A DNA stretch of 64,000 bases, from NCBI RefSeq assembly GCF_003259315.1, contig NZ_QLLT01000019.1, forward strand, positions 62,001 through 126,000. The letters are read 5' to 3'. Below the pieces are notes generated by a model, which had not been told where the DNA came from, did not search any database, and worked only from the letters and a program-made list of their open reading frames with translations. Below are positions 8,875-43,679 of this stretch, piece after piece. Source of the stretch: Kitasatospora sp. SolWspMP-SS2h (GTDB lineage Bacteria > Actinomycetota > Actinomycetes > Streptomycetales > Streptomycetaceae). Position 1 is the stretch's first letter, and each line of letters starts with the position of its first letter. Made by a program: the position numbers and the translations under genes.

Positions 8875-8910
8875 GGGGCGGGTCCTTTCCGGGGCGGGAC
8901 GGCGGGGGTG

Positions 8911-17862: not shown

Positions 17863-18851
17863 CGCCTCACCCGGGGGTCGATCACCGAGTACAGCAGCTC
17901 GGCGAGGATGTTGGCGACCACGATGGTCACCGTGATCAGCAGGAAGGCGCCGCCCATCAGCGGGTAGTCCCGGTTGCCGATGCTCTTGAGCAGCAGGTTG
18001 CCCAGGCCCGGGTAGTCGAAGACGTCCTCGATCAGCACCGAGCCGGCGAACATGTGGCCGACCGACAGGGCGAGCGTGGTGAACAGCGGCAGCACGGCGT
18101 TGCGGCCGACGTAGCGCATCCGGGTGGCCGGGGCGATGCCGCGCAGCTCGGCGGCGAGGATGAAGTCGTCGCCGAGGACGGAGGCCACGCTGGACTTCAT
18201 GGTCAGCAGCCAGCCGCCGTAGCTGAGCAGCGCGTAGGTGGCCACCGGCAGGACGGCGTGGGTGGCGACCGAACCGAGGTACTCGGCGGTGAAGCCGGGG
18301 GCGATGGTCACGTCGCTGGTGTCGCCGTAGGGCAGCACGTTCCACAGGGTGTGGAACAGGAACGCCAGCAGCAGGGCCAGGACGAACGACGGCACGCCCG
18401 CCATCAGCGAGCCGGACAGCGACAGCAGGCCCCCGCTGCGGGAGTCGCGCCGCACGGCGGCGACCACCCCGGCGGCGCAGCCGACCAGGAAGCTGAGCAC
18501 CAGCCCGGACAGCACCGGCAGCACCGTCCAGGGCACGGCCGCGCGGATCACGTCCGCGACCGGGACGCCGCTGTAGGAGATCGACACCCCCAGGTTGCCG
18601 TGGAGCAACTGGCCCAGGTAGCCCAGGTACTGGTCCACCAGCGGCTCGTGCGAGGTGAACCCGTACACGACGGCGACCTTGGCCCGGGCCAGTTCGGGCG
18701 GCATGCCGCCCAGCACGTACGACTCGTAGGCCGCGTCGCCGGGGTTGCCGGGCAGGGCGTGGACGAGGAAGAAGGTGAAGGTGGCGACGGTGAACACCAT
18801 CGCCAGGCCGGCGGCCAGCTTCGCCGCGAGCCGGAGGAGGAAGCCCTTCAT
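17859..18851 (-). CDS. Opp/Dpp-type ABC permease (B-type)
   Basis: Predicted 330-residue permease with six helices. It starts with an N-terminal anchor (LAMVFTVATFTFFLVHALPG) and contains the DppB-type EAA region DDFILAAELRGIAPATRMRY, then RNAVLP, and ends with the usual DPRVRR. It lies seven bases downstream of the substrate-binding protein gene in the importer operon. Confidence 0.92.
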   Translation of the reverse strand: MKGFLLRLAAKLAAGLAMVFTVATFTFFLVHALPGNPGDAAYESYVLGGMPPELARAKVAVVYGFTSHEPLVDQYLGYLGQLLHGNLGVSISYSGVPVADVIRAAVPWTVLPVLSGLVLSFLVGCAAGVVAAVRRDSRSGGLLSLSGSLMAGVPSFVLALLLAFLFHTLWNVLPYGDTSDVTIAPGFTAEYLGSVATHAVLPVATYALLSYGGWLLTMKSSVASVLGDDFILAAELRGIAPATRMRYVGRNAVLPLFTTLALSVGHMFAGSVLIEDVFDYPGLGNLLLKSIGNRDYPLMGGAFLLITVTIVVANILAELLYSVIDPRVRR

Positions 18852-18857
18852 CCGCCG

Positions 18858-20693
18858 CTACTTCTGCTTGTTCTTGGGCTGGACGTAGCCCTGCATCATC
18901 CAGACGCCGGGCGAGTTGCTCAGCAGGCCGTCCTCACCGGACTTCGGGAAGTCGGTGAACCGCTTGTCGTTCACGAACTGCACGTTGGTGTAGTCCCAGA
19001 TCTGGATGACCGGCAGCTGCTGGTTGGAGAGCCCGGCCAGTTGCCGGACGATGTCCCGCTGTTCCTCCGGCTTGAGGACGGTCAGCCTGGCGGTCAGCTC
19101 GCCGGGGTTGACGGCGGCGCCGTCGAGGGGGAAGGAGGTCGGAGTGTTGAGCCAGTTGCCCGAGCCCTGGCCGGACCTGTGCGTGACGTTGGCGCCGATC
19201 GCGGTGAAGCCGTCGTCCGCGCCGTACAGGCGCTGGAAGGCGGCGTCGGTGCCGGGGCCCAGCGCGGTCAGCCAGAAGCCCAGGGGGTACTTGCCGTCCG
19301 CCATCTCCTTCTTGTAGGTGCTGAAGTCGGCGGTCAGCGCGGTCTTGGTCGGGATGCCGAAGGCGGTCAGCTGGTTGGCGACGACGGTGCCGCCGGCGAT
19401 CCAGTCGCTGAAGCCGTTGACGGTCTGCAGGGTGAGGGTCCACGGCGTGCCGTCGGGCAGGTGCCAGGCGCCGTCCTTCTTGGTGAGCCCGGCCTGCTGA
19501 AGGAGTTCGGCGGCCTTGGCCTCGTCGTGCGCGTACGGGTCGAGCGCGGCCTGCTGCTCGGGCGTGAGCCACTTCTCGGCGACCTTGTCGATCAGGCCGG
19601 TGGTGGCCTTCGAGGCGGTCCCGCCGACCGGCTGGCCGACCTTGGTGACGGCCGCGCGGTCGATGACGTGCGCGAGCGCCCGCCGGACCTCCACCTTGTC
19701 GAACGGGGCGACGCTCTGGTTGAAGGCGATCGCCGCGTCCACGTAGTTGATGGCGTCGACGCGCCGGTTGCCGGCTTTCAGGATGCGCTGGAGCACGTTG
19801 TCGGGGATGGCGGTGAACGGCGCGGCGTCCAGTTCGCCGTTGGTCATGTAGCTCCAGATCTGCTCGTTGCCGGTGTAGTTGCGCACCACCACCTGCTTGG
19901 GCCCGATCTTGGCGGCGGCGAAGAAGTGCGGGTTGCGGTCGAGCACCGCGGAGCCCGGGTTGACCCGGGTGATGACGAACGGGCCGGCCGAGACGTCCTT
20001 GGCGGGGGCGAACGCGGAGACCTTCTTGCCGATCTCGTTGAGCTTGTCGACGGCCGCCTTCGCGGCGTCGGCCTGCGCGGGGTCGGCGCTCTGGCTGGCG
20101 TGGATCACGTCCCAGACGTCGGCGGGCAGCAGGGCGCCGTACACCGCGGCGGGGACGATCTTCTGGGTGAGCACCAGGCGCGGGAACTGGATGTTCCGGG
20201 CACCGGGCACCTGGCCGATCTCGAAGGTGTGCGGCGCGGTCTCCCTGACCTCGGCGACGTCCAGGCCCTGGGTGAGCAGGCCGGCCCCGATGGTGGCCGA
20301 GCCCTGGGTGAGCGCGATGGCCATCGACGCCTTGACGTCCTCGGCGGTGACGGGCGTGCCGTCGGACCACTCGGCGTCGGGCTCCAGCTCGACCGTGATC
20401 GAGGTGTCGGTGGTCTTCCAGCTCCGGGCCAGGCCGGGGAAGAAGTCGTTCGGGTCCTGCGGGTTCTTCTTGGTGAAGCCCAGCTGCATGGTGTCGTAGC
20501 CGAGGAAGGTGTTCCCGGCGGCGTTGAACGGGTTCATCGGGGCGCCGGCCGAGATCGGGTGGTTGCCGTCGATGGTGGTGAACGTTCCGCCTCCGGCGGA
20601 GTCCGAGGACCCCGCGCCGGGGGAGCAGGCAGCGGTGCCGCCGAGCAGGAGGGCCGTCGCGAGGGGGAGGGCGGCGCGTCTGGCGTTCTTCAT
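18858..20693 (-). CDS. ABC transporter substrate-binding lipoprotein (SBP family 5)
   Basis: Predicted 611-residue extracytoplasmic lipoprotein. Its signal is MKNARRAALPLATALLLGG followed by a TAAC lipobox, so Cys23 should be lipidated. SBP_bac_5 features include FFPGLARSWKTTDTSITVEL, EWSDGTPVTAEDVKASMAIA and FDKVEVRRALAHVIDRAAV. GGAG precedes the ATG. Cluster-C proteins bind peptides or oligosaccharides. The location opposite murQ, with an oligosaccharide-like ATPase, suggests a MurNAc-containing ligand (inference). It is the first gene of the minus-strand importer operon. Confidence 0.92.
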   Translation of the reverse strand: MKNARRAALPLATALLLGGTAACSPGAGSSDSAGGGTFTTIDGNHPISAGAPMNPFNAAGNTFLGYDTMQLGFTKKNPQDPNDFFPGLARSWKTTDTSITVELEPDAEWSDGTPVTAEDVKASMAIALTQGSATIGAGLLTQGLDVAEVRETAPHTFEIGQVPGARNIQFPRLVLTQKIVPAAVYGALLPADVWDVIHASQSADPAQADAAKAAVDKLNEIGKKVSAFAPAKDVSAGPFVITRVNPGSAVLDRNPHFFAAAKIGPKQVVVRNYTGNEQIWSYMTNGELDAAPFTAIPDNVLQRILKAGNRRVDAINYVDAAIAFNQSVAPFDKVEVRRALAHVIDRAAVTKVGQPVGGTASKATTGLIDKVAEKWLTPEQQAALDPYAHDEAKAAELLQQAGLTKKDGAWHLPDGTPWTLTLQTVNGFSDWIAGGTVVANQLTAFGIPTKTALTADFSTYKKEMADGKYPLGFWLTALGPGTDAAFQRLYGADDGFTAIGANVTHRSGQGSGNWLNTPTSFPLDGAAVNPGELTARLTVLKPEEQRDIVRQLAGLSNQQLPVIQIWDYTNVQFVNDKRFTDFPKSGEDGLLSNSPGVWMMQGYVQPKNKQK

Positions 20694-20933: not shown

Positions 20934-21896
20934 ATGACCCCGAGCCGTTCCGTCCGCGTCGTGTCGCCCACCGAGCGGCGCAACCCCCGCACCCTCGGCA
21001 TCGATCGGGCCGACCCGCTCGAGGTCCTGCGGCTGCTCAACGCCGAGGACGCCCTCGTCCCCGCCGCCGTGGCCGAGGTGCTGCCCCGGCTCGCGGCCGT
21101 GGTGGAGGCCGCGGTCGAACGGCTGCGCGCCGGCGGCCGGCTGCACTACTTCGGCGCGGGCACCTCCGGACGCACCGCCGTGGTCGACGCCGCGGAGCTC
21201 GGCCCGACCTTCTCGCTGCCGCCCGGCGTCGTCGTCGCCCACCACGCGGGCGGCCCGGCCGCGCTGGTCACCGCCGTCGAGGGCAGCGAGGACAGCGAGG
21301 AACTCGGCGCCGCCGACGCCGCCGACGTGGGCCCGGGCGACGTGGCGGTGGGCGTCGCCGCCAGCGGCCGCACCCCCTACGTGGCGGGCGCGCTGGCCGC
21401 GGCCCGGGCCGCCGGCGCCTTCACCGCCCTGGTCAGCGCCAATCCCGACGCGCCGCTCGCGCACCTGGCCGACGTGCACGTCGCCGTCGACACCGGCCCC
21501 GAGGCCATCGCCGGATCCACCCGGCTCAAGGCCGCCAGCGCCCACAAACTCGTTCTCAACGGCCTCTCCACCGCCGTGATGGTCGCGCTGGGGCGCACCT
21601 ACTCCAACCTGATGGTGGACGTCTCCGCCAGCAACGCCAAGCTGCGCGGCCGACTGGTGACCATCCTGATGGAGGCCACCGGGCTCGACGAGGAGCGCTG
21701 CGCGCACGCCCTCACCGCGACGGACGGCGAACTGAAGACGGCCCTGGTCTGCCTGCTGGCCGACTGCGGGCCCGAAGAGGCCCGCCGCCGCCTGGCCGCC
21801 GCCCGCGGGCGGGTGGCCGACGCCCTGGCGGCGCAGCCGATCCGAGCGTGCCGGGGCGCTCGCGGCGGTCCGGCGCCGGGCCCGGCCCGGCCCTAG
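20934..21896 (+). CDS. murQ: N-acetylmuramic acid 6-phosphate etherase
   Basis: Predicted 320-residue cytosolic lyase that removes D-lactate from MurNAc-6-P to give GlcNAc-6-P. Signature elements: TERRNPRTLGID at the N-terminus, YFGAGTSGRTAVVDAAEL (sugar-phosphate loop), GSEDSEELGA, VGVAASGRTPYVAGAL (second SIS loop), GSTRLKAASAHKLVLN, and GRTYSNLMVDVSASNAKLRGR. Length and order match known MurQ. The C-terminal tail (SIS-associated HTH-like part) is a little divergent. It is divergent from the ABC importer operon and convergent with the RpiR gene; the two stop codons share three bases around 21893-21896. Confidence 0.96.
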   Translation: MTPSRSVRVVSPTERRNPRTLGIDRADPLEVLRLLNAEDALVPAAVAEVLPRLAAVVEAAVERLRAGGRLHYFGAGTSGRTAVVDAAELGPTFSLPPGVVVAHHAGGPAALVTAVEGSEDSEELGAADAADVGPGDVAVGVAASGRTPYVAGALAAARAAGAFTALVSANPDAPLAHLADVHVAVDTGPEAIAGSTRLKAASAHKLVLNGLSTAVMVALGRTYSNLMVDVSASNAKLRGRLVTILMEATGLDEERCAHALTATDGELKTALVCLLADCGPEEARRRLAAARGRVADALAAQPIRACRGARGGPAPGPARP

Positions 21897-22825
21897 AGGC
21901 GGTGGTTGCGCACCGCCGTGTAGGTGCGCTCCAGGGCCTTCAGCGTGCGGGCCCGGTGGCGCTGGGCCACTCCGACGAACAGGCAGTCCACGACCGTGAG
22001 CGCGGCGATCCGACTGGCCATCGCGCCGGAGCGGAAGGTGGTCTCGCGCACCGCCGTGGTCAGCACGTGGTCGGCGTGCTCGGTGATCTCCGAGCGCGGG
22101 AAGTTGGTGATCGCCAGGGTGGTGGCCCCGTTGCGACGGGCTTCCGCGAGGACCTCCACGGTGGCCGCGGTGTCGCCGGTGTGCGACACCCCGATCGCCA
22201 CGTCGCCGCTCCGCAGCAGCGCCGCCGAGGTCAGCGCGATGTGCGGGTCCACCCAGGCGTTGACCCGGCGGCCGATCCGGTGCAGCTTCTGCTGCAGGTC
22301 CAGGGCGACCAGGCCGCTCGCCCCCACCCCGTACACGTCGATGCCGTCGGCCGAGGAGACCGCGTCCACCGCCCGCTTCAGGGCGTGCAGGTCGAGCTGG
22401 CCGACGGTGTCCTCGACCGCGCGGGCGTCGGCGAAACCGAGCTTGGCGACGATGTCGGCCAGCGAGTCGCGCGGGCCGATGTCCGCGCCGACCGGGCTCC
22501 ACCCCGCGCTGCTCTCCTCGACGCTGGCGGCCGAGGCCAGGCCGATCCGCAGGTCCGGGTACCCCTTGAGGCCGAGCGTGCGGCAGAACCGCATCACGGT
22601 GGTCTCCGAGGTGCGGCACTCGGCGGCCAGCTCGCTGATGGTCTGCGCGGCCACGTTCGCCGGATCGGCGAGCGCGGCCTCGGCGACCCGGCGCTCGGCG
22701 GGCGCCAGCGAGGGCAGCAGCGCCCGGATCTGGACGAGCACCGTCTGCGGCGGGCCGCTGGGCGCGGGAGCGGCGGGGCGTGCGGTGGATCTGCGCCTGG
22801 GGCGGGTTCCGTCGGCTGCTGTCAC
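21893..22825 (-). CDS. RpiR family regulator, MurR-like
   Basis: Predicted 310-residue repressor or activator sensing a phosphorylated amino sugar. The HTH is canonical RpiR: TISELAAECRTSETTVMRFC, then RTLGLKGYPDLR (about 62-94). The SIS domain follows: IDVYGVGASGLVALDLQQKL, then AIGVSHTGDTAATVEVLAEA and TTLAITNFPRSEITEHADH. The GTG at 22825 has AAGGA eight bases upstream. Position next to murQ matches MurR, which responds to MurNAc-6-P in other bacteria. It is co-directional with the AmpC-like hydrolase, 50 bases downstream of it, so probably one transcript. Confidence 0.92.
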   Translation of the reverse strand: MTAADGTRPRRRSTARPAAPAPSGPPQTVLVQIRALLPSLAPAERRVAEAALADPANVAAQTISELAAECRTSETTVMRFCRTLGLKGYPDLRIGLASAASVEESSAGWSPVGADIGPRDSLADIVAKLGFADARAVEDTVGQLDLHALKRAVDAVSSADGIDVYGVGASGLVALDLQQKLHRIGRRVNAWVDPHIALTSAALLRSGDVAIGVSHTGDTAATVEVLAEARRNGATTLAITNFPRSEITEHADHVLTTAVRETTFRSGAMASRIAALTVVDCLFVGVAQRHRARTLKALERTYTAVRNHRL

Positions 22826-22875: not shown

Positions 22876-24021
22876 TCAGGCGGGTCGGGCGCCGGGCGGG
22901 GTCCGCGGAGCGGCATCCGGATCCGTCAGAGCGTCGCAGACCGCCCGCCGCAGCGCCACGACCACCGAGGCGTCCCGGCCGAGGTGGACGCCGTTGGTCA
23001 GCAGCACCGCCCACGGACCGCCGGACGGGGCGAGGGCCACGCTGGTGCCGGTGAAGCCGGTGTGTCCGGCGCCGTCGGACGGCCAGTACCGCGCCATGTG
23101 GTCCCAGCGGTCGCCGCGCAGCGTCCAGCCCAGGCCCCGGCGGCCGCCCAGCCCTTCGGTGTGGCAGTGCAGCGCCTCGGCGCGGACCTTCGGGGAGAGG
23201 ATCGGCGAGTCGGCGGCCAGCCAGCCGCGCTGCAGGTAACGGGCCAGGTCGCCGGCGGTGCCGAACAGGCCGGCGTGGCCGCACACCCCGCCCAGCGACG
23301 CCGCGTTCTCGTCGTGCACCGTCCCGACCGGGACGCTGCCGTCGGGCCGGGCCTCGGTGGCGGCGGTGCGCCCGCGCCAGCCGACGGGCGGCCGGTAGCG
23401 GGTGTCCGCCAGGCCGAGCGGGTCCAGCACCAGCTCCCGCACGGCCCGGTCCAGCGGAGCCCCGGCCACCGCGCGGACGACCTCGCCCAGCGCGACGAAC
23501 CCCAGGTCGGAGTAGGCGACCGCGGTGCCGGGCGCGGTGACGAGCGGTTCGGCCAGGGCGGCGGCCAGCCGGCCGGCGGGCCTCCCGGGCCGTTCGTGCA
23601 GCGGCCGGTGCGGGGGCAGGCCCGAGGTGTGGGTGAGCAGGTGACGCACCGTCACCGCGTCCTTGCCCGCCCCGGTGAACCCCGGCAGGTGGCGCCGGAC
23701 CGGGTCGTCCAGGCCCAGTGCTCCGGTGTCGGCCAGCCGCAGCACGGCGGGCAGGGTGGCCGTGACCTTGGTCAGCGAGGCGAGGTCGTAGACCGTGCCG
23801 GCGGTGACCGGGACGGACGGGCCGGTCACCGCCGTGCGGCCGAAGGCGTGCACCAGCGGTTCGCCCTCCGCACCCCAGCCGGTGGCGAGCACCGCCCCCG
23901 GCAGGCCGCCGGAGTCGACGGCGGCCGCGACGAGCGCGGCCGCCGCGGCGGTGCCGCGGGCCAGGCGCTCGGGGTCGCCGGGGTCGCCGGTGTCGCCGGG
24001 GAAAGGGCGGGCGATCGTCAT
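22876..24021 (-). CDS. Serine hydrolase, beta-lactamase class C / AmpC-like fold
   Basis: Predicted 381-residue penicillin-recognising hydrolase without a visible signal peptide, so probably cytosolic. SLTK (after VYDLA) provides the nucleophile Ser and base Lys, YSDLG is the second motif (Asp in place of the usual Asn), and HTGFTGTS the third (HTG for KTG). LLTHTSGLPPHRP is the typical loop. An AmpC-like hydrolase also sits in the Bacillus subtilis MurNAc operon (YbbE) and next to murQP in E. coli (YfeW), which supports a muropeptide substrate here. GGAG precedes the ATG at 24021. Confidence 0.88.
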   Translation of the reverse strand: MTIARPFPGDTGDPGDPERLARGTAAAAALVAAAVDSGGLPGAVLATGWGAEGEPLVHAFGRTAVTGPSVPVTAGTVYDLASLTKVTATLPAVLRLADTGALGLDDPVRRHLPGFTGAGKDAVTVRHLLTHTSGLPPHRPLHERPGRPAGRLAAALAEPLVTAPGTAVAYSDLGFVALGEVVRAVAGAPLDRAVRELVLDPLGLADTRYRPPVGWRGRTAATEARPDGSVPVGTVHDENAASLGGVCGHAGLFGTAGDLARYLQRGWLAADSPILSPKVRAEALHCHTEGLGGRRGLGWTLRGDRWDHMARYWPSDGAGHTGFTGTSVALAPSGGPWAVLLTNGVHLGRDASVVVALRRAVCDALTDPDAAPRTPPGARPA

Positions 24022-24091
24022 GGGTGTTCTCCACTGGCCGTGCCGCACGCGCGCCGGGCCGGGAGAGGTCTGGTGGCCCCGGGCGATCGTT

Positions 24092-24105
24092 GGTAGTTTT
24101 CCACC
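24092..24105. promoter_or_regulatory. Imperfect palindrome in divergent hydrolase/GNAT promoter
   Basis: GGTAGTTTTCCACC lies in the 131-bp region between the AmpC-like gene (minus) and the GNAT operon (plus). The outer arms GGT...ACC are symmetric around an AT-rich core that stands out in this GC-rich DNA. It may be an operator for the MurR-like regulator, but no second good copy was found, so this is weak. Confidence 0.3.
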
Positions 24106-24152
24106 GCTCGAAAGCTCAATCATGTTATCAAGCAACAGAGGGGACGGACAGC

Positions 24153-25124
24153 ATGAGGGACGCCGCACCACCCGTGCTGCGCACCGCGCACCACGGCGAC
24201 CTCCCGGAACTGCACGGGATCGTGACCGCCTCGCTCGTCCACGACCCCGACGCGGCAAGGGTGTTGACGCTGCTGTGGGAGCTCACGGCGGACCGTCCCG
24301 ACCTGCGGGTCGTCAGCGAGAGCGGTGGCGTCGTCACCGGCCTCGCACTCGGCCGGCTCGCCCCGCCGTCCGACGGCCCGCACCCGCGCACCGGACACAC
24401 CACCCTGCTCGCGGTCGCCCCCGGGCACCGCGGCCGGGGCCACGGCCGCGCGCTGCTGGCCGGTATCGAGGAACGCCTGCTGGCGGCCGGCGCCACCCGC
24501 CTGGTCGTCCGCGGCACCCCGCCGCACTACGCCTGGCCCGGACTCGACATCCGCTACACCCCCGCCGTGTGCCTGGTGGAGTCCGCCGGGTACGAGCACA
24601 CCGCCGACGCGTTCAACATGCTCACCGACCTGGCCGATGCCGACCTGGCCACCGCCGGGGACGAACGGCGGCTGGCCGCCCTCGGCGTGCGGGTGCGCCG
24701 GGCCCGACCCGAGGACGCCCCCCGCTTCCTCGCCTGGATGCGCGGCTGGGGCGGCAGCTGGGCCGAGGAGGCCGCCACCGCGCTCGCCCACGAGCCGCCG
24801 CGCTGCCACGTCGCGGTGCGGGGCGAGGACGGCGCCGAGGAGTTCGTCGGCTTCGCCTGCCACGGCGTCAACCGCGACACCTGGTTCGGGCCGATGGGCA
24901 CCGCCGAGTCCCAGCGCGGCCGCGGCGTCGGGGCCGTCCTGCTGCGCCGCTGCCTGCGCGACCAGCGGGAGGCGGGCCTCGCCGAGTCCGAGATCGCCTG
25001 GATCGCCCCGTACCGCTTCTACGCCCGCGCGGTCGACGCCCGGCTGCACCGGGTGTTCCGCCTCTACCGGAAGGACCCGCACGTGCCCGACCACCCCCTC
25101 TCCGCCCCGGAGCAGCGCTCATGA
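24153..25124 (+). CDS. Tandem-GNAT acetyltransferase
   Basis: Predicted 323-residue protein with two GNAT folds. The first has the acetyl-CoA loop APGHRGRGHGRALL (about 90-105); the second has SQRGRGVGAVLLRRCL (about 252-267). It transfers acetyl from acetyl-CoA to an unknown amine. Coupling by ATGA to a PLP decarboxylase and then NagZ places it in muropeptide use; an amino sugar, a wall-derived amino acid or an amine product are the obvious candidate acceptors (inference). GAGGGG precedes the ATG. Confidence 0.85.
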   Translation: MRDAAPPVLRTAHHGDLPELHGIVTASLVHDPDAARVLTLLWELTADRPDLRVVSESGGVVTGLALGRLAPPSDGPHPRTGHTTLLAVAPGHRGRGHGRALLAGIEERLLAAGATRLVVRGTPPHYAWPGLDIRYTPAVCLVESAGYEHTADAFNMLTDLADADLATAGDERRLAALGVRVRRARPEDAPRFLAWMRGWGGSWAEEAATALAHEPPRCHVAVRGEDGAEEFVGFACHGVNRDTWFGPMGTAESQRGRGVGAVLLRRCLRDQREAGLAESEIAWIAPYRFYARAVDARLHRVFRLYRKDPHVPDHPLSAPEQRS

Positions 25125-26482
25125 CCCTCCCCGGTGCCGCCCCCCGGGCCGCCGACCGGGCCCGGCGGCGCGACCTCGCGGTGCGCGCCGCCGTCCGCGC
25201 CGGACTGCTCGACCCGGACGACACGCCCCTGGCGGCCTTCCTCGACCTGCGGGGCGTCGCGGAGAGCGCCGCCGCCCTGCACGCCGCCTGGCCCGCCGGG
25301 GAGAGCGTCGAACACACCTTCGCGGCGAAGGCCAACAGCCTGGTACCGGTGCTGCGGCTGCTGCGCGGGCACGGGCTGGGCTGCGAGGTGGCCAGCCCCG
25401 GCGAACTGGCCCAGGCCCTGGCCGCCGGGTTCGAGCCCCGGCAGCTGGTGCTCGACTCGCCCGCCAAGACCCGCCCCGAACTGCGCGCGGCCCTGGCCGC
25501 CGGAGTCACCGTCAACATCGACAACTTCCAGGAGCTGGAGCGCGTCGACGCCCTGGTCGCCGCGGGCGGCACCGCGTCCCGGATCGGGCTGCGGATCAAC
25601 CCGCAGGTGGGGCTGGGCGCCATCGCCGCGATGTCCACGGCCGGGAACGAGTCCAAGTTCGGCTTCGCGCTGGGGGACCCCGGCAACCGGGAGCGCATCG
25701 TCGGAGCCTTCCTGGCCCGGCCCTGGCTCCGCTGGCTGCACGTACACGTCGGCTCCCAGGGCTGCCCGCTGGAACTGTCCGCCGCCGGGGTCGCGGCCGT
25801 CGTCGCGCTGGCCGAGGAGATCGACCGCCGGGCCGGTGCCGCCCGGGTCGAGGGCATCGACGTCGGCGGCGGACTGCCGGTCAACTTCGCCGACGACCGC
25901 GACGACCCGACCTTCGCCGACCAGGTCGCCGCGCTCCGGGCCGGCGCCCCCGGCCTGTTCGGCGGCCGCTACCGGCTGGTCACCGAACTCGGCCGCTCCC
26001 TGCTGGCCAAGAACGGCTTCCTGGCCTCGCGGGTGGAGTACACCAAGCGCTCCGGCGGCCGGGCGATCGCGCTCACCCACGCGGGCGTGCAGGTCGCCGC
26101 CCGCACCGTCTTCCTCCCCGACGCCTGGCCGCTGCGGGTGCTGCCCTACGACGCCGACGGCCGGCCGCGGCCCGCCGACGGCGGACCGGACGGCACGGTG
26201 CCGCAGGACGTCGCCGGGCCGTGCTGCTTCGCCGGCGACCTGGTGGCCCGGGCCCGCGAACTGCCGCTGCTGGCACCCGGCGACCTGGTGGTGCTGCCCG
26301 ACACCGGCGCGTACTACTTCTCCACCCCGTTCCACTACAACAGCCTGCCGCAACCCGCCGTGCACGCCTACCAGGTGGACGCCGACGGCGGGGTCCGCTT
26401 CACCCTGCTGCACCGCCAGGAGACCGTCGAGGACGTGGTCGCCCGCACCCTCGGCGAAGCCGCGGACGGGGCGGCGCGGTGA
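25121..26482 (+). CDS. PLP-dependent decarboxylase, fold III (diaminopimelate/ornithine decarboxylase-like)
   Basis: Predicted 453-residue enzyme. FAAKANSLVPVLR puts the PLP lysine at about residue 70. Barrel features follow: ASPGELAQALAAGF, VNIDNFQELERV, GLRINPQVG, HVHVGSQGCPLEL, DVGGGLPVNF, ELGRSLLAKNG (usually EPGR), GPCCFAGD (usually CESGD-like) and DTGAYYFSTPFHYN. The overall plan is LysA-like, but several active-site motifs differ, so substrate specificity has probably shifted. Decarboxylating diaminopimelate released from wall peptides is a reasonable hypothesis; racemase activity or another diamino acid is possible. Coupled on both sides: ATGA with the GNAT gene and GTGA with nagZ. 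Confidence 0.85.
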   Translation: MTLPGAAPRAADRARRRDLAVRAAVRAGLLDPDDTPLAAFLDLRGVAESAAALHAAWPAGESVEHTFAAKANSLVPVLRLLRGHGLGCEVASPGELAQALAAGFEPRQLVLDSPAKTRPELRAALAAGVTVNIDNFQELERVDALVAAGGTASRIGLRINPQVGLGAIAAMSTAGNESKFGFALGDPGNRERIVGAFLARPWLRWLHVHVGSQGCPLELSAAGVAAVVALAEEIDRRAGAARVEGIDVGGGLPVNFADDRDDPTFADQVAALRAGAPGLFGGRYRLVTELGRSLLAKNGFLASRVEYTKRSGGRAIALTHAGVQVAARTVFLPDAWPLRVLPYDADGRPRPADGGPDGTVPQDVAGPCCFAGDLVARARELPLLAPGDLVVLPDTGAYYFSTPFHYNSLPQPAVHAYQVDADGGVRFTLLHRQETVEDVVARTLGEAADGAAR

Positions 26483-28023
26483 GCGCGCCGGAGGACCCGG
26501 CGCTGCTGCGGCTCGCCGACGGCGTGCTCCAACCCGGCTTCGACGGTCTGACCGCCCCCGACTGGATCCGCCGCCGCCTGGCCGACGGGCTCGGCTCCGT
26601 CCTGCTGTTCGGCCGCAACTTCGGGCCCCCGCCCGGCGGTCGCGGGCAGGCCGCCGCCCTGGTCGGGCAACTGCGCGCCGAGCACCCGGACGTGCTGGTC
26701 GCCGTCGACGAGGAGGGCGGCGACGTCACCCGGCTGGAGTGGGCGTCCGGCTCCTCCTCGCCCGGCAACCTGGCGCTGGGCACCGTCGACGACGAGCAGC
26801 TGACCCGGGCGGTCGCCCGCTCGATCGGCCGCGACCTGGCCGCGCTCGGCATCGACCTGGACTACGCGCCGGACGCCGACGTCAACTCCGACCCGCGCAA
26901 CCCGGTGATCGGCGTGCGCTCCTTCGGCGCCGACCCGGCGCTGGTGGCCCGGCACACCGCCGCCTGGGTGCGCGGCCTCCAGGAGGGCGGCACCGCCGCC
27001 TGCGCCAAGCACTTCCCCGGGCACGGCGACACGGTCGTCGACTCCCACCTCGGCCTGCCCACCGTCACCGCGGACCTCGCCGAGCTGGAACGCGTCGCCC
27101 TGCCGCCGTTCCGGGCCGCGACGGCGGCCGGGGCGCGGGCCGTGATGACCGCCCACCTCCTGCTGCCCGCCCTCGACCCGGAGCACCCGGCGACGGTCAG
27201 CCCGCGCATCCTCACCGGCCTGCTCCGCCACCGGCTCGGCTTCGACGGGCTGGTGGTGACCGACGCCGTCGAGATGCGGGCGGTCGCCGACCGCTACGGC
27301 CACGCCGGGGCGGCGGTGCGGGCGCTGACGGCCGGCGCCGACCTGGTCTGCCTGGGCGACCGCGGCTCGGCCGACGCCTACGACGCGCTGCGCACCGCCG
27401 TCGCGCGGGCGGTCCGCACCGGGGACCTGCCCGAGGAGCGCCTGGCCGAGGCCGCCGCCCGGGTCGCGGGCTTCGCCCGCTGGACCCGCGACCTGCGGGC
27501 CGCCGCCCGAGGGGGGACGGCGGGCGGCCCCGAGCGGGAAGGACGCCCGGAACCGGGCCTGCTCGCGGCCCGCCGCGCCCTGGCGGTGGCCCGGCCCACC
27601 GGCGTCCCGCCGCAGGGCGGGGGCGGGCCCTGTGTCGCCGAGTTCCGGCCGACGCCGACCATCGCGGTGGGCACGGTCACCGCCTGGGGCCTGGCGGAGC
27701 CGCTGGCCGCGCTCCTGCCGGGCACCGAGGTGCGGCAGGTGGGCCAGGAGGAGGCGGAGGACGACCCGGCCGGGACGGTGGCCCGGCTCTGCGCCGCGGC
27801 CGAAGGCCGTCCGCTGGTGCTGGTGGTGCGGAACGCGCACCGGCACGCCTGGGCGGACGCGGCGGTCACCGCCCTGCTGGTCCGGCGGCCGGACGCCGTG
27901 GTGGTCGAGTTCGGCCTGCCGCAGTCGCCGCCCCGGGGCGGACTCCACCTGGCGCCGCACGGCGCGGCACGGGTGTGCGCCGAGGCCGCGGCGGAGGCGG
28001 TGGCCGCGCACCTGGGCCGCTGA
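26479..28023 (+). CDS. nagZ: Beta-N-acetylglucosaminidase, GH3
   Basis: Predicted 514-residue GH3 enzyme that removes non-reducing GlcNAc from GlcNAc-MurNAc(-peptide) fragments. The barrel shows VAVDEEGGDVTRLEW, YAPDADVNSDPRNPVIGVRS, the catalytic loop KHFPGHGDT (about 177-185, His/Asp general acid-base pair specific to NagZ-type enzymes), and VVTDAVEMRAVA with the nucleophile Asp near 261. A second alpha/beta domain continues to the C-terminus, longer than in E. coli NagZ and more like the two-domain Bacillus enzyme. No signal peptide, hence cytosolic. GTG at 26479, overlapping the PLP enzyme stop. A strong hairpin follows the stop. Confidence 0.93.
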   Translation: MSAPEDPALLRLADGVLQPGFDGLTAPDWIRRRLADGLGSVLLFGRNFGPPPGGRGQAAALVGQLRAEHPDVLVAVDEEGGDVTRLEWASGSSSPGNLALGTVDDEQLTRAVARSIGRDLAALGIDLDYAPDADVNSDPRNPVIGVRSFGADPALVARHTAAWVRGLQEGGTAACAKHFPGHGDTVVDSHLGLPTVTADLAELERVALPPFRAATAAGARAVMTAHLLLPALDPEHPATVSPRILTGLLRHRLGFDGLVVTDAVEMRAVADRYGHAGAAVRALTAGADLVCLGDRGSADAYDALRTAVARAVRTGDLPEERLAEAAARVAGFARWTRDLRAAARGGTAGGPEREGRPEPGLLAARRALAVARPTGVPPQGGGGPCVAEFRPTPTIAVGTVTAWGLAEPLAALLPGTEVRQVGQEEAEDDPAGTVARLCAAAEGRPLVLVVRNAHRHAWADAAVTALLVRRPDAVVVEFGLPQSPPRGGLHLAPHGAARVCAEAAAEAVAAHLGR

Positions 28024-28345: not shown

Positions 28346-29737
28346 ATGCCGCGCAGCGCGCCGTCGTTCCTGAACCACCGACCGGCCGTCCTGGCCGCCG
28401 CCCTCCTCCTCCCGCCGGCCGCCGCCGCCCTGGGTGCCCCCACCGCCGCGACGGCCGCACCCCCGGCCGCACCCCCGGCCGCCGCGGCGGGCGCACCCGC
28501 ACCGATCACCCACCCCGACGCCGACCACCTGGGCTCCACCCTCCCCGGCCGCCCCGCCGCCGGCACGACCGCCCGCCCGTCCGGCACCGACTCCCTCCGG
28601 GCCCTCACCGTCCAGCCGTCCGGGGGGCCCGCCGCCGCGCTGCCCGCCGCCGCGCTGCCCGCCGCCGCGCTGCCCGCCGGCGCCGAACCGCTCGGCATCG
28701 ACGTGGCCGCGTACGAGCCGAACGTCGACTGGGCCGCCACCGCGGCCGCCGGGGCCTCCTTCGCCTACGTCAAGGCCACCGAGGGCACCGGCTACACCAG
28801 CCCCACCTTCTCCTCCCAGTACAACGGCTCGGCGGCGGCCGGACTCCTGCGCGGCGCCTACCACTTCGCCCTGCCGGACCGCTCCGGCGGCAAGGCGCAG
28901 GCCGACTTCCTCGTCGACCACGGCGGCACCTGGAGCGCCGACGGCACGACCCTGCCGCCCCTGCTGGACATCGAGTACAACCCGTACGGCGCCACCTGCT
29001 TCGGGCTGAGCACCTCGGCGATGACCGCCTGGATCCTGGACTTCGGCACCGAGGTCAAGGCCCGCACCGGCCGCTACCCGAGCCTGTACACCACCACCGA
29101 CTGGTGGCGCACCTGCACCGGCGACTCCGCCGCCGCGGCCGCCTACCCGCTGTTCGTCGCCAACTACACCGGCAGCGCCGCCCCCGCCCCCCACGGCTGG
29201 ACCGGGCAGCAGATCTGGCAGTACGCCGACGCCGGCGTCCTCCCGGGCGACCAGGACGTCTTCAACGGCACCGCGGCCGAACTCCGGGCCTTCGCCCTCG
29301 GCACCGGCACCGCCACCCCGCCCGCGCCCGCCGCCACCGCCTGGCCGCTCACCCAGCAGGGCGACAGCGGCACCCGGGTCGGCATCCTCCAGCACCTGCT
29401 GAACGCGCACGGCGCCGCCCTCACGGTGGACGGCCGGTTCGGCCCCGGCACCCGCAGCGCGGTCCTCTCGTACCAGAACGCCGCCGGGCTCGGGGCGGAC
29501 GGCGCCGTCGGGTCCGCCACCTGGCAGTCCCTCACCGGCACGCTCCTCCAGGGCGCCTCCGGCAGCGCCGTCAAGGCCGCCCAGGTCGGACTGAACGCGC
29601 ACGGCGCCGCGCTCACCGTGGACGGCCAGTTCGGCCCCGGCACCCGCAGCGCCGCACAGACCTACCAGACCGCCCAGGGCCTGCCCGCCGACGGCGGCGT
29701 GCTCAAGCCCACCTGGCTGGCACTGGTCGCCTCCTGA
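28346..29737 (+). CDS. Secreted GH25 lysozyme with two peptidoglycan-binding domains
   Basis: Predicted 463-residue exported muramidase. The signal peptide is MPRSAPSFLNHRP plus an Ala/Leu core. A low-complexity linker follows, including a thrice-repeated AALP unit near residue 93-108. The GH25 barrel begins at GIDVAAYEPNVDW (about 115, Asp) and has AYVKATEGTGYTSP, GAYHFALP and LLDIEYNPY (about 206, the DxE catalytic pair), then IWQYAD. Two PG_binding_1 repeats end the protein, each with ALTVDGRFGPGTRSA or its near copy (about 335-397 and 405-460). It cleaves the MurNAc-GlcNAc bond outside the cell. Start chosen by AGGAG five bases upstream. Confidence 0.93.
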   Translation: MPRSAPSFLNHRPAVLAAALLLPPAAAALGAPTAATAAPPAAPPAAAAGAPAPITHPDADHLGSTLPGRPAAGTTARPSGTDSLRALTVQPSGGPAAALPAAALPAAALPAGAEPLGIDVAAYEPNVDWAATAAAGASFAYVKATEGTGYTSPTFSSQYNGSAAAGLLRGAYHFALPDRSGGKAQADFLVDHGGTWSADGTTLPPLLDIEYNPYGATCFGLSTSAMTAWILDFGTEVKARTGRYPSLYTTTDWWRTCTGDSAAAAAYPLFVANYTGSAAPAPHGWTGQQIWQYADAGVLPGDQDVFNGTAAELRAFALGTGTATPPAPAATAWPLTQQGDSGTRVGILQHLLNAHGAALTVDGRFGPGTRSAVLSYQNAAGLGADGAVGSATWQSLTGTLLQGASGSAVKAAQVGLNAHGAALTVDGQFGPGTRSAAQTYQTAQGLPADGGVLKPTWLALVAS

Positions 29738-29793
29738 CAGCACCCCGCCCCGGCCCCCCACCTCCGCCCCCCACCGAGAGGCAGGAACCCACG

Positions 29794-30771
29794 TTGCGCA
29801 CCACCCGCCCCCCGCTGCGCCCCACCCCGGCGCGCCTCGCCGCCGCCCTGCTGGCCGCTCTACTGACCCTCCTGGGGACCGCGCTGCCCGCCCACGCGGC
29901 CGCCCCCGCCTGGCCGGTGCTCGCCCAGGGCGCCGGCGGCAACGACGTCGCCAGCCTGCAGTTCCTGCTGCGCCAGCGCGGCCAGACCCTGGTCGCCGGC
30001 GGCTACTTCGACGCGCAGACCAAGAGCGCCGTCGTCGCCTTCCAGAGCGCCAACGGCCTGACCGCCGACGGCGTCGTGGGCGCCAACACCTGGGCCAAGC
30101 TGGTCGTCACCGTCTCGCCCGGCGACACCCAGGACAACGCCGTCCGGGCCGTGCAGTTCCAGCTCCAGGAGATCGGCTACGACGTGCCCACCGACGGCGT
30201 GTTCGCCGGAGCCACCACCACCGCCGTCAACGACTTCAAGGCCGGTCGGCAGCTCACCGGCGGCAGCACCGTCGGCCTCACCACCTGGCAGTACCTGCTC
30301 GGCGCGCCCGCCGGCAGCGGTGGCGTCCACGGCGGCTACGCCTTCGTGGTGCCCAAGGGCGCCGTCTCCGGCGGCCGCGACGGCATCCTCCAGCCGCACC
30401 ACGACTACCCGGCCGACGACATCCCGGTCGTCGAGTGGACCGACGCCTTCGCCGTCACCTCCGGCACCGCCCGCCAGAACGGCGGGGTGGACGACGCCTG
30501 CGGCTACGGCCTGGCCATCGACGGCGACGACGGCGTCACCTACCAGTACTGCCACCTCAACAGCCGCCTGATCGCCACCGGCACCCGCGTGACGCCCGGC
30601 CAACTCGTCGCCTACACGGGCAACACCGGCAACACCACCGGCCCGCACCTGCACTTCGGCATCTTCCGCGGCGGCGTCTCGGTCTGCCCGCAGCAGCTGC
30701 TCGCCGCCCTCTGGGACGGCACCGCCCCGCCGTCCCCGCAGTCGCTGCCGACCACCGGCTGCTCCTACTGA
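29794..30771 (+). CDS. Secreted M23 metallopeptidase with two peptidoglycan-binding domains
   Basis: Predicted 325-residue exported endopeptidase. The TTG at 29794 is chosen because AGGAA sits seven bases upstream and it opens a good signal peptide (RPTPARLAAALLAALLTLLG, then ALPAHA). Two PG_binding_1 domains (about 40-105 and 110-170) come first. The C-terminal lysostaphin-type domain has the zinc ligands HHDYPADD (about 201-208) and GPHLHFG (about 282-288), with YQYCHLNS between. M23 enzymes cut peptide crosslinks. Domain order is binding modules before catalysis, the reverse of the lysozyme upstream. Confidence 0.92.
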   Translation: MRTTRPPLRPTPARLAAALLAALLTLLGTALPAHAAAPAWPVLAQGAGGNDVASLQFLLRQRGQTLVAGGYFDAQTKSAVVAFQSANGLTADGVVGANTWAKLVVTVSPGDTQDNAVRAVQFQLQEIGYDVPTDGVFAGATTTAVNDFKAGRQLTGGSTVGLTTWQYLLGAPAGSGGVHGGYAFVVPKGAVSGGRDGILQPHHDYPADDIPVVEWTDAFAVTSGTARQNGGVDDACGYGLAIDGDDGVTYQYCHLNSRLIATGTRVTPGQLVAYTGNTGNTTGPHLHFGIFRGGVSVCPQQLLAALWDGTAPPSPQSLPTTGCSY

Positions 30772-30777
30772 CCCGAC

Positions 30778-30812
30778 GCCCCGCCCGCCCCGCTCCCCGG
30801 GGCGGGCGGGGC
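30778..30812 (+). terminator. Strong hairpin after the M23 gene
   Basis: GCCCCGCCCGCCCCG (30778-30792) pairs perfectly with CGGGGCGGGCGGGGC (30798-30812) around a five-base loop. It starts seven bases after the stop and probably ends or attenuates the GH25-M23 transcript. Confidence 0.8.
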
Positions 30813-30887
30813 CCGGTCCCGCGGCCATCTCCGCCGCCCCGCCGCCCCTGCCCCGCCCGGCTCCGCCCCGACGAACAGGAAACCCGC

Positions 30888-32483
30888 ATGCGCCTCCTCC
30901 CGCGCCGCCTCGCCCGGCCGGTGGCCGCCGCCCTGGCCGCCGCGCTGCTGGCCGTGGCCGCCCCCGGCGGCAGCGCGCCGCCCGCGTCCGCCGCCGCTTC
31001 CTCCGCGCTCACCGCCGACCTCGACCGGCTGCTGGCCGACCCGCGCCTGGCCGGCGCGACGGCCGCCGTGAAGGTGGTGGACACCGAGAGCGGCGAAGTC
31101 CTGTACGCGCACGACTCGCAGCACCTGGTGCTGCCCGCCTCCACCATGAAGCTGGTCACCTCCGCCGCCGCCCTGGACGCCCTCGGCACCGGCTACCGCT
31201 TCGGCACGGACGTCCTGGCCACCGGCCGCAGCGACGCGGGCGTCCTGCGCGGCGACCTCGTCCTGCGCGGCGGCGGCGACCCCAGCCTGCTGCCCCAGGA
31301 CCTCGACGCGCTGGCCCGGCAGGTCGCCGACAGCGGCGTGCGCCTGGTGACCGGCTCGCTCGGCTACGACGCCTCCCGCTACGACGACGTGCCGCTGGGC
31401 AGCGGCTGGGCCTGGGACGACGAGCCGTACTACTACAGCCCGCAGATCTCCGCGCTGACCCTCGCCGGCGACACCGACTACGACATGGGCACCCTCCAGG
31501 TGACCCTCACCCCGGGCGAACCCGGCAGGCCCGCCGCCGTACGGGTCGTCCCCGCCGACACCGGCGTGAGGATCACCGGCAGCGTCACCACCGGCCCGGC
31601 CGGAAGCGGCTACAGCGCCGACGTCACCCGCCGCCACGGCACCGGCGAGATCGTGCTCTCCGGCAGCCTGCCCGCCGACAACGGCCCCGACGACGAATGG
31701 GTCACCGTCGACGACCCGGCCGGGGCCACCGCCCACGCCTTCGCCGCCGCGCTGGCCCGGCACGGCGTGCGCGTCCTGGGCCTGCCGGGCCGCGACCCGG
31801 TCGCCACCACCACCCCCGCGGGCGCCCGGCAGGTCGCCCACCACGACTCGGCGCCGCTCGGCGACCTGCTGGTGCCGTTCCTCAAGCTCAGCAACAACGG
31901 CATCGCCGAACACCTGGTCAAGGAGCTGGGCCGGACCGGCTCCGGGCAGGGCAGCTGGTCCGCCGGCCTCGCCCGGATCACCGACTTCCTGCACCGCAAC
32001 GGCCTCGACACCACCCCGACCCGCCAGGCGGACGGCTCCGGCCTCTCCCGCTACGACCTGGTCACCGCCGACCGCTACACCGCGCTGCTCACCTACGCGC
32101 GCACGCAGCCCTGGTTCGCCACCTGGTACGAGGCGCTGCCGATCGCGGGCAACCCCGACCGGATGGTCGGCGGCAGCCTGGCCACCCGCATGCAGGGCAC
32201 CGCGGCGGCCGGGAACGTCCACGCCAAGACCGGCTCGATGAGCGGCGTCAACACCCTCGCCGGGTACGTCACTTCGCCCGAGGGCCGCAAGCTCGCCTTC
32301 GCCGTCCTGGTCAACGACTTCGTCGCGCCCAGCCCCCGCCCGGTCATCGACCAGATCGCGGTCCGGCTCGCGACGGGCCCCGCCCCGGCCGCACAGCTAC
32401 GCGCCCAGGTCGAACGCGGCAGCACCGGGCAGCCGGACGAACCCGCCCCGCCGCAGCGCGTGCACGGCCGCACCTGGGACTGA
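30888..32483 (+). CDS. dacB: D-alanyl-D-alanine carboxypeptidase/endopeptidase, PBP4 (S13) type
   Basis: Predicted 531-residue exported penicillin-binding protein. A Sec signal (RRLARPVAAALAAALLAV, then PASAAA) leads to the mature enzyme. Active-site motifs: STMK after LPA (about 85-88), LSNNG (SxN, about 334) and AKTGSMSG (KTG, about 445). The large insert between the first two motifs, typical of PBP4-type proteins, is present. It removes terminal D-Ala or opens crosslinks. AGGAAA lies before the ATG. Confidence 0.93.
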   Translation: MRLLPRRLARPVAAALAAALLAVAAPGGSAPPASAAASSALTADLDRLLADPRLAGATAAVKVVDTESGEVLYAHDSQHLVLPASTMKLVTSAAALDALGTGYRFGTDVLATGRSDAGVLRGDLVLRGGGDPSLLPQDLDALARQVADSGVRLVTGSLGYDASRYDDVPLGSGWAWDDEPYYYSPQISALTLAGDTDYDMGTLQVTLTPGEPGRPAAVRVVPADTGVRITGSVTTGPAGSGYSADVTRRHGTGEIVLSGSLPADNGPDDEWVTVDDPAGATAHAFAAALARHGVRVLGLPGRDPVATTTPAGARQVAHHDSAPLGDLLVPFLKLSNNGIAEHLVKELGRTGSGQGSWSAGLARITDFLHRNGLDTTPTRQADGSGLSRYDLVTADRYTALLTYARTQPWFATWYEALPIAGNPDRMVGGSLATRMQGTAAAGNVHAKTGSMSGVNTLAGYVTSPEGRKLAFAVLVNDFVAPSPRPVIDQIAVRLATGPAPAAQLRAQVERGSTGQPDEPAPPQRVHGRTWD

Positions 32484-32559: not shown

Positions 32560-33579
32560 ATGCCCACCACCCCGACCACGTCCGTCCCGCTGGTGATCGG
32601 GGTGGACTCCGGAGGCACCGGCACCCGCTGCGCGGTCGTCGGCCTGGACGGGCGGGTACGGGCCCGCGGCCAGGGACCCGGCGGCAACCTGCGGTCCAGC
32701 CCGGACCCGGCGGGAGCGCTGCGCCAGGCGCTGGAGGACGCGCTGGGCGGCATCGACCGCCGCCGGATCGCCGCCGGTCACCTGGCGTTCGCCGGAGCCG
32801 CCGGGGAGGACGGCGGCACCTACCGCGACATGGCCACCCGGGTCTGGCGGCAGGCCCGCCTGCCCGGTGCGCCCGCCGTCGGCGACGACCTCGCCGCAGC
32901 CGTCGCCGGGGCCACCGACCGCCCGGACGCGCTGCTCCTGCTGTCCGGAACGGGGGCGGTGGCCGCCCTGTACCGCGGCGGGGCCCGGACCGCCCGGCGC
33001 GACGGCTACGGCTGGCTGCTGGGCGACGAGGGCTCCGGCGTCTGGCTCGGCCGGCAGGCCGTCGTCCTCGCGCTCGCCGCCCTGGACGGCCGCGGACCGG
33101 CGACGGCCCTGCTGGACGTCCTGCCCCGGGCGCTCGGCGTCGACACCGGCGGAGCCGACGGCACCGGCACCGCCCTGGCGCGGCGGATGGTCACCGCCGT
33201 GCACGCCGCCCCGCCCGCCGAACTCGCCCGCCTCGCCCCGCTGGTGGACGCCGTGGCCAGGAACGGGGACCGGATCGCCGACCGCGTCGTCACCGAGGGC
33301 GCCCGGCTGCTGCTGCGCACCCTCGACTCGCTCGCCGACACGGCCGGACCCGACTTCGCCGCCCTGCCCGTCGTCCTGGCCGGCGGCCTGCTCACCGGCA
33401 CCACCCTGCTCGCCGACCGGGTCACGGCCGTCCTGCGGGACCGGGGCACCGCCACCGTCCCGGCCCGGGACGGCGCGACCGGAGCGGCCGCCCTCGCCGC
33501 CCTCGCGCTGCGGTCCGGCGCGACGCCCGCCGAGGCCCGGCGGCTGCACCGGACCGTGGCGGGACTGGAACCCGCCTGA
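32560..33579 (+). CDS. N-acetylglucosamine/N-acetylmuramic acid kinase (BadF/BadG/BcrA/BcrD fold)
   Basis: Predicted 339-residue ATP-dependent sugar kinase. Fold motifs: VIGVDSGGTGTRCAVVG (phosphate 1), LAFAGAAGEDG, DDLAAAVAG, LLLSGTGAVAAL (phosphate 2), YGWLLGDEGSGVWLGR, and VVLAGGLLTGTTLLADRV (adenosine). Members phosphorylate GlcNAc, and some (MurK of Clostridium) also MurNAc. Because anmK is broken here and no other MurNAc kinase is visible in the window, this enzyme may supply MurQ with MurNAc-6-P (inference). It lies among wall hydrolase genes on the plus strand and is convergent with the GHL10 gene. Confidence 0.88.
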   Translation: MPTTPTTSVPLVIGVDSGGTGTRCAVVGLDGRVRARGQGPGGNLRSSPDPAGALRQALEDALGGIDRRRIAAGHLAFAGAAGEDGGTYRDMATRVWRQARLPGAPAVGDDLAAAVAGATDRPDALLLLSGTGAVAALYRGGARTARRDGYGWLLGDEGSGVWLGRQAVVLALAALDGRGPATALLDVLPRALGVDTGGADGTGTALARRMVTAVHAAPPAELARLAPLVDAVARNGDRIADRVVTEGARLLLRTLDSLADTAGPDFAALPVVLAGGLLTGTTLLADRVTAVLRDRGTATVPARDGATGAAALAALALRSGATPAEARRLHRTVAGLEPA

Positions 33580-37408: not shown

Positions 37409-37410
37409 CC

Positions 37411-37440
37411 GCCCGCGGCGGCCGGCGGGCCGCCGCGGGC
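37411..37440 (+). terminator. Intra-operon hairpin after the binding-protein gene
   Basis: GCCCGCGGCGGCC (37411-37423) pairs perfectly with GGCCGCCGCGGGC (37428-37440), loop of four. It starts three bases after the stop. Such hairpins often keep binding-protein mRNA in excess over the permease mRNA. Confidence 0.75.
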
Positions 37441-37516
37441 ACCCCGTACGCCCGTCCGCCCGGCCCCGGCACCCGCCCGGGCCCGGCGGGCCCCGACCCC
37501 CCGGGGGCAGCCTCCC

Positions 37517-43669: not shown

Positions 43670-43679
43670 GGCCGGTAGC

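Follow-up and report, generated by a model that had tools for sequence, protein, structure and literature searches.

The closest described counterparts of the locus reported here are two sets of genes treated in one account, of which we use excerpts (PMC5061867): the salvage operon murQ-murR-murP-amiE-nagZ-ybbC of Bacillus subtilis, and SCO4305-SCO4308 of Streptomyces coelicolor, with MurQ (SCO4307), a MurR-like regulator (SCO4308) and two genes of unknown function. Enzymes of the glucosamine N-acetyltransferase type are also said to act on peptidoglycan fragments ahead of cleavage by beta-N-acetylglucosaminidase (PMC4680927). We analysed a stretch of 64,000 nucleotides (the window) from the 7.58 Mb genome of Kitasatospora sp. 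SolWspMP-SS2h (contig NZ_QLLT01000019.1, positions 62,001 to 126,000). It carries three overlapping genes encoding a tandem GNAT, a fold-III enzyme dependent on pyridoxal 5'-phosphate (PLP) and a NagZ-type glycoside hydrolase of family 3 (GH3). We read this triplet as an operon for the salvage of muropeptides in the cytoplasm, in which a GNAT-NagZ pairing is joined by an accessory decarboxylase of D-centres, and we give this reading a probability of about 0.6.

A translationally coupled triplet

The three genes are translationally coupled. As the original prediction had proposed, the GNAT and PLP genes overlap by ATGA and the PLP and nagZ genes by GTGA, and all three frames are found where Table 1 places them. 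Third-position GC content is 0.96-0.97 in the three genes alike.

The tandem GNAT had been considered a protein without an established role beside NagZ. This view does not survive structural comparison, since its closest structures are a glucosamine N-acetyltransferase and a GH3/tandem-GNAT fusion. A profile of 11 GNATs matches the Clostridium acetobutylicum glucosamine N-acetyltransferase (5kga, E 2.6e-14), which we take to be the enzyme named GlmA (5kf1-5kgp), and the Rhizomucor GH3-GNAT fusion RmNag (4zm6, E 1.7e-10). The predicted structure (mean pLDDT 87) has the tandem GNAT fold over its full length and is closest to the GlmA/RmNag CTR family, with Z 26.9 against 4zm6 (rmsd 3.1, 298 residues aligned) and Z 25.5 against 5kf2 (rmsd 2.9, 291 residues; 5kga also 25.5), the next structure giving 22.4. 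The top two Foldseek matches of the model, the glucosamine N-acetyltransferase and the RmNag fusion, agree with the ranking by Z-score. In RmNag, Trp735 and Trp835 form the sugar pocket and Tyr842 is the acid, its replacement (Tyr842Ala) leaving the enzyme inactive; these residues align with W203, W283 and Y290 of the window protein and are invariant in all 11 GNATs. From alignment and model, the protein most likely works like glucosamine N-acetyltransferases. Mycothiol synthase and streptothricin acetyltransferase were rejected as identities, on weaker fold agreement (Z 18.4-19.1) or on score (26.8 bits against a cut-off of 420).

The NagZ protein matches Glyco_hydro_3 (E 2.6e-72) and contains the GH3 dyad loop KHFPGHGDT at 177, DSH at 188 and the nucleophile Asp motif VVTDAVEM at 259. 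Its solved relatives include 6k5j (E 3.7e-74) and, third-best, 4zm6 (E 3.5e-61). It scores 180.2 bits against NCBIfam PRK05337, below the cut-off of 207; this model has 340 positions and describes a shorter NagZ type, and the window protein is best classed, by its sequence, as a NagZ-type GH3 beta-N-acetylglucosaminidase rather than as an exact member of that subfamily. No signal peptide was seen by eye. Because the GNAT best matches a glucosamine N-acetyltransferase and a GH3-GNAT fusion, GNAT and NagZ together call for no new pathway.

The PLP enzyme and its active site

The PLP enzyme contains the Pfam domains Orn_Arg_deC_N and Orn_DAP_Arg_deC, and its closest solved relative is LysA, the diaminopimelate (DAP) decarboxylase (4xg1, E 3.4e-38). 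The altered motifs reported in the original prediction are confirmed: EPGR of LysA is ELGR (289-292) and CESGD is CFAGD (369-373). E289, R292, R328 and C369 are kept in all 87 family rows of our alignment and the PLP lysine, K70, in all 86 that have a residue there; the catalytic Lys and Cys of LysA and the two Arg that bind the distal carboxylate are thus all present. The residue that follows the catalytic Cys, Glu in the CESGD of LysA, is F370 here, with Phe in 86 of the 87 rows and Tyr in one. The alignment establishes the family of the enzyme, its predicted catalytic residues and the altered specificity residue.

By sequence this is no ordinary LysA. It scores 223.1 bits against the lysA model TIGR01048 (222.6 in a second search), below the cut-off of 297.9; the same genome has a true LysA elsewhere (at C11, 471 bits) and a second enzyme, at C7, barely above the cut-off (298.1); and the Glu that contacts the distal amine has become Phe. 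The consequences of such a change can be judged from Thermotoga maritima LysA, for which we rely on excerpts of one study (PMC8277567). There, the contact with the distal amine is Glu315, and the contacts with the distal carboxylate are Arg249 and Arg285. Replacement of Glu315 lowers activity on DAP while activity on other D-amino acids is gained, the Glu-to-Phe variant being weakly active towards DAP, 2-aminopimelate, aminoadipate, D-norleucine and D-Phe. Because Phe stands for Glu315 and both Arg are kept in our enzyme, this analogy suggests a substrate that has a distal carboxylate without a free distal amine, or one that is hydrophobic. Our best guess is that it decarboxylates amino acids derived from peptidoglycan, or peptides containing DAP, at a D-centre. 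D-glutamate is weakened as a candidate substrate by the lack of D-glutamate activity in the Glu-to-Phe variant. The D-ornithine/D-lysine decarboxylase DokD (NF052544, 89.5 bits against a cut-off of 700) and the exosortase-associated decarboxylase (TIGR03099, 135.2 bits against 478.45) were rejected on score.

Phylogeny and genomic contexts of the PLP family

We compared 82 context loci, which comprised the upper part of the match list, three class hits and five plasmid records and are not a random sample. Two of them (L106 and L167) were dropped as having no PLP frame in a simple gene caller; a length filter removed none. The resulting tree has 89 rows, 80 from context loci, seven from clusters with the tandem GNAT and two LysA. 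The seven cluster PLP enzymes form one group (100/99), whose sister is a group of five (join 100/99). Four of these five adjoin S9 and M20 peptidases, some together with M55, LdcA or a D-aminoacylase-like amidohydrolase (Pfam Amidohydro_3, the finer name being given by eye). The labels S9, M20 and M55 were given to genes no more than six away whose products match the window proteins in blastp at 1e-20, and by this measure the other 75 rows have no S9 or M20 neighbour and M55 in four. M20-family genes of another kind are present in urocanase loci. A CFAGD gene stands beside urocanase in, for example, L157 (4199-5791 and the PLP gene next to it), which raises the question of a role in histidine catabolism.

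Members of the PLP family abound in Streptomycetaceae: of 40 listed genomes, 38 have one that matches at E 1e-60. It is presumably the family called Y4yA; a literature search for a PLP-dependent enzyme of this name found no paper. Two plasmid homologues are annotated as diaminopimelate decarboxylase, an annotation that, judged by the specificity residue, is probably wrong for the family. The PLP copy of an Arthrobacter plasmid lies near a gene annotated as D-cysteine desulfhydrase, another D-amino-acid enzyme (L106, 12406-13431). LysA paralogues with intact CESGD or CETGD also occur in peptidase/importer clusters (L176, 2223-3704; L041, 14036-15325), which suggests that they serve the salvage of DAP to lysine. 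In L041 one peptidase cluster contains both a LysA paralogue with CETGD and an enzyme with CFAGD, so that the two probably have different jobs.

Conservation of the gene set

Few genomes encode the tandem GNAT: with a threshold of E 1e-30 it turns up in nine of the 297 Streptomycetaceae genomes, in 11 places altogether, and at E 1e-25 in seven of the 70 from the genus. Each of the 11 places has NagZ sequence (three of them as fragments only), and all but one, that of G155, also have PLP sequence in the cluster; of these 10 PLP copies, one is broken, one is cut by a contig end and one lies about 9 kb away. The GNAT/PLP overlap recurs in L033, L034 and L035, and the PLP/nagZ overlap in L033 and L034; in L036, the simple gene caller leaves gaps of less than 50 bases between the triplet genes. 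The order is GNAT-PLP-NagZ in the Kitasatospora loci, GNAT-NagZ-PLP in L059 and GNAT-NamZ-PLP-NagZ in L037, where NamZ (which we take ybbC of B. subtilis to be) was recognized by Pfam. A second cluster of genome G181 (L043, L067) has, consecutively, genes for the PLP enzyme, S9, M20, LdcA, M55, NagZ, NamZ, GNAT, a hydrolase, a regulator, MurQ and an importer. GNAT, PLP and NagZ genes are a linked set of varying order, and the search of other genomes that the original prediction had called for gives this answer: the set is conserved in relatives, its order is not. In genome G151 the cluster occurs twice, on separate contigs (L035, L060), as near-identical copies with many broken frames, either a terminal repeat or draft sequence errors.

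Beyond the Streptomycetaceae sample, 27 genome_contigs loci contain a relative of the GNAT, and eight of them also have MurQ and importer genes (L079-L083, L099, L102, L104). NagZ is present in seven of these eight and the PLP gene in three (L079, L081 and, as a truncated gene on the equally long contig represented by L059, L082). No PLP gene was seen in the examined stretches of L080 (K. phosalacinea NBRC 14627), L099, L102 and L104, and that of L083 stops inside nagZ. GNAT-MurQ-importer clusters lacking the PLP gene occur outside Streptomycetaceae and, given the count of three against seven, GNAT and NagZ would seem to form the core, with the PLP enzyme as an accessory.

The surrounding supercluster

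The triplet probably sits within a muropeptide-salvage supercluster of about 38 kb that extends from 7.5 to 45 kb of the window (Table 1). To judge by family, most genes in this interval would serve to degrade or take up peptidoglycan, and the neighbouring families bear out the earlier proposal of a muropeptide-processing locus. As in clusters for the salvage of N-acetylmuramic acid, MurQ, a MurR-type regulator, a NagZ-type gene, an amidase-like hydrolase and an importer stand together, the amidase and transport roles being predicted. The best NCBIfam model for the serine hydrolase is PBP4B, at 100.6 bits below its cut-off of 385. A SIS-domain regulator and a helix-turn-helix (HTH)-cupin regulator are also found to the left of the triplet, and a GHL10 gene to the right of the NagK-like kinase. 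In the first importer, genes other than the binding protein were named by eye and by conservation beside MurQ and GNAT in relatives; in the second importer region, those without a Pfam match were named by position and by eye.

Table 1. Features of the window, the triplet first and then its neighbours in order of position.
Feature	Coordinates	Strand	Basis
Tandem GNAT, glucosamine/glucosaminide N-acetyltransferase-like	24153..25124	+	Pfam GNAT domains, predicted fold, profile match
Fold-III PLP enzyme of LysA descent, predicted D-centre decarboxylase	25121..26482	+	Pfam, TIGR01048, alignment, tree
NagZ-type GH3 beta-N-acetylglucosaminidase	26479..28023	+	Pfam Glyco_hydro_3, motifs, solved relatives
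M20 peptidase, M55 D-aminopeptidase, S66 LD-carboxypeptidase (LdcA), S9 peptidase	7519..12873	-	Pfam
Oligopeptide-type ABC importer and binding protein, candidate muropeptide importer	14877..20693	-	SBP_bac_5 for 18858-20693
MurQ, MurNAc-6-phosphate (N-acetylmuramic acid 6-phosphate) etherase	20961..21896	+	TIGR00274, 307.9 bits, above cut-off 302
MurR/RpiR-type regulator	21893..22741	-	HTH_6 and SIS; NCBIfam MurR/RpiR models, below cut-off
Serine hydrolase, beta-lactamase family, AmiE/PBP4B-like position	22876..24021	-	PF00144, E 2.9e-59
Conserved intergenic block between divergent serine-hydrolase and GNAT genes	24067..24152	.	Alignment
GH25 lysozyme-like, M23 peptidase, S13 D-Ala-D-Ala carboxypeptidase	28346..32483	+	Pfam
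BadF/NagK-like amino-sugar kinase	32560..33579	+	PF01869; NagK model 79.6 bits, below cut-off 370
Second oligopeptide ABC importer, amidase_2 amidase, C39-like peptidase	35774..45055	+	Pfam for 35774-37408, 41648-43669, 43748-45055

In an alignment of five loci chosen from the available cluster loci, 69 of 85 columns of the intergenic block ahead of the GNAT gene are invariant. This block is probably the promoter/operator region of the triplet and may contain an operator of the MurR-type regulator. An imperfect palindrome, GGTAG-TTTT-CCACC, was seen by eye within it. A search for a 15-base motif common to the intergenic regions of the window returned only GC-rich near-matches, and a tRNA scan found none. 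Between the GHL10 gene and the second importer, at 35464-35520, about 17 codons read by eye may be the start of an AnmK-like gene that then goes out of frame; tblastn with AnmK of the L058/L035 type gave no match in the window at 1e-15. A long AnmK-like gene occupies the corresponding site in L035 and L058 (AnmK by Pfam in L058). At the left end of the window, a single long frame (37-1506) begins with a fragment resembling an FAD oxidoreductase, matches NanE over its latter half and probably represents an over-long start or the tail of a neighbour.

Discussion

We propose that peptidoglycan fragments would be imported by the oligopeptide ABC importer. Following the known pairing of GNAT and GH3 proteins, the tandem GNAT would re-acetylate their glucosamine residues, which NagZ would then remove. 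Judging from their families, the serine hydrolase/amidase, MurQ and the kinase would handle the muramic-acid part, and the LdcA, M55, M20 and S9 peptidases would dismantle the stem peptide. The PLP enzyme would decarboxylate the D-amino-acid centre of a peptidoglycan-derived compound with a distal carboxylate and no free distal amine, reaction and substrate both being predicted. The pathway so described is a familiar type of salvage that follows the known GNAT-NagZ logic, with the addition of one PLP enzyme whose substrate we infer.

Several observations weigh against this proposal. Most of the PLP rows sampled, 75 of 87, lie outside peptidoglycan loci and have the same Arg, Arg and Phe residues; PucR-type regulators lie within one gene in 31 of 80 loci and urocanase in 17 of 80 (both labels rest on clustering, with two and one representatives, respectively, confirmed in Pfam). 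The PLP substrate therefore need not be peptidoglycan-derived. In the excerpts of PMC8277567, the Glu-to-Phe variant of T. maritima LysA is low on every substrate used and inactive on D-glutamate, D-ornithine and lysine. The near relative G155 keeps the cluster, including the peptidases, with no PLP gene between GNAT and NagZ; it has a family member elsewhere in its genome (L064), and loss is the simpler reading because more distant relatives carry the PLP gene in the cluster. In 19 of the 27 genome_contigs loci only the GNAT was matched, with no salvage gene matched nearby, and such GNATs in Micromonospora, Paractinoplanes and a metagenome-assembled genome speak against a role confined to the cluster. 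Finally, the Asp before the sugar-binding Trp (Asp834 of RmNag; Asp287 of GlmA, located by comparing the D287N entry with the wild type) is A282 here and Ala, Gly or Ser in all 11 GNATs. The acceptor of the GNAT could therefore differ, and because this one acceptor-pocket Asp is missing we do not file the protein as a member of that family.

Other explanations concern mostly the PLP enzyme. It is doubtful that its gene is a passenger with a general amino-acid role of its own, present in the operon by chance: Streptomycetaceae often have family members in other contexts, and the G155 cluster has none, but the gene is retained at 10 of 11 GNAT places despite rearrangement, and an enzyme of the sister clade also lies within a muropeptide cluster in G181. 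A more specific version of our own proposal, that the enzyme, once LdcA has trimmed the stem peptide and freed the carboxylate of DAP, decarboxylates meso-DAP in that peptide at its D-centre and yields a lysine-type peptide, seems rather unlikely to us. It would agree with the two Arg kept in 87 of 87 rows and the Glu-to-Phe change in 86 of 87, as expected for an acylated amine, with LdcA in the same cluster, with the separate LysA paralogue alongside in L041 and with the activity of engineered LysA, which falls with shorter acids in the excerpts of PMC8277567. However, the pocket would have to admit a peptide, identical residues are seen in family members whose genes lie at a distance from those for peptidoglycan, and LL-DAP-containing peptides have no D-centre on DAP. 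One narrow search of the open-access literature for a step of muropeptide or DAP decarboxylation found no paper.

That the enzyme is an ordinary DAP decarboxylase is improbable. LysA is its closest solved relative, two plasmid homologues carry that annotation, and the Glu-to-Phe variant of T. maritima LysA retains about 5% of DAP activity (36 of 675 mU/mg; excerpts of PMC8277567); we nevertheless rejected an ordinary LysA on the score below cut-off, the true LysA elsewhere in the genome and the Glu lost in 86 of 87 rows. The order of events put forward in the original prediction, decarboxylation followed by acetylation of the amine product by the GNAT, is more improbable still. Translational coupling would fit it and the missing Asp leaves the acceptor open, but GNAT, MurQ and importer genes occur together with no PLP gene in the examined stretches of L080, L099, L102 and L104, the sister PLP clade stands beside peptidases without this GNAT in L040-L042, and the sugar-pocket Trp is retained. 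In modified form, the idea that DAP or DAP peptides are decarboxylated may hold.

The salvage reading places a glucosamine-acetyltransferase-like protein and a probable D-centre decarboxylase in actinobacterial cell-wall salvage; a literature search for Kitasatospora with NagZ and N-acetylmuramic acid found no paper. Few natural D-centre decarboxylases are known. DAP decarboxylases have been called the sole ones, as worded in the excerpts of PMC8277567, contrary to which structures of D-ornithine/D-lysine decarboxylases exist. Peptidyl-DAP decarboxylation, if true, would turn DAP-type into lysine-type peptides during salvage.

Like the B. subtilis operon, the cluster has MurQ, a MurR-type regulator, NagZ and a hydrolase in the amidase position, and relatives of the cluster have a NamZ gene. 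It differs in its ABC oligopeptide importer, where B. subtilis has a phosphotransferase system, and in the added GNAT, PLP enzyme and peptidases; NagZ and AmiE of B. subtilis are extracellular, whereas the window NagZ has no signal peptide visible by eye. With SCO4305-SCO4308 of S. coelicolor, from the same bacterial family, the cluster shares the pair of MurQ and MurR-like genes; the excerpts of PMC5061867 name no GNAT, PLP enzyme or importer there, unlike in the window. The PLP enzyme resembles LysA in fold family, PLP Lys, His, E.GR motif, catalytic Cys and both distal Arg, and differs in the Phe that replaces Glu after the Cys, in its score below the LysA cut-off and in the presence of a true LysA elsewhere in the genome. 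DokD (6n2h and others), a natural LysA relative acting on other D-amino acids, matches it over residues 50-270 only (E 3.5e-22). The GNAT shares with the C. acetobutylicum enzyme the full-length tandem fold (Z 25.5) and the pocket Trp and Tyr, at 18% identity and with Ala for Asp287. Both halves of R. miehei RmNag, a GH3 beta-N-acetylglucosaminidase fused to a tandem GNAT, have their match in the window (NagZ, E 3.5e-61; GNAT, Z 26.9); Asp834 is not kept and, in contrast to the fusion, the two functions are encoded by separate genes with the PLP gene between them.

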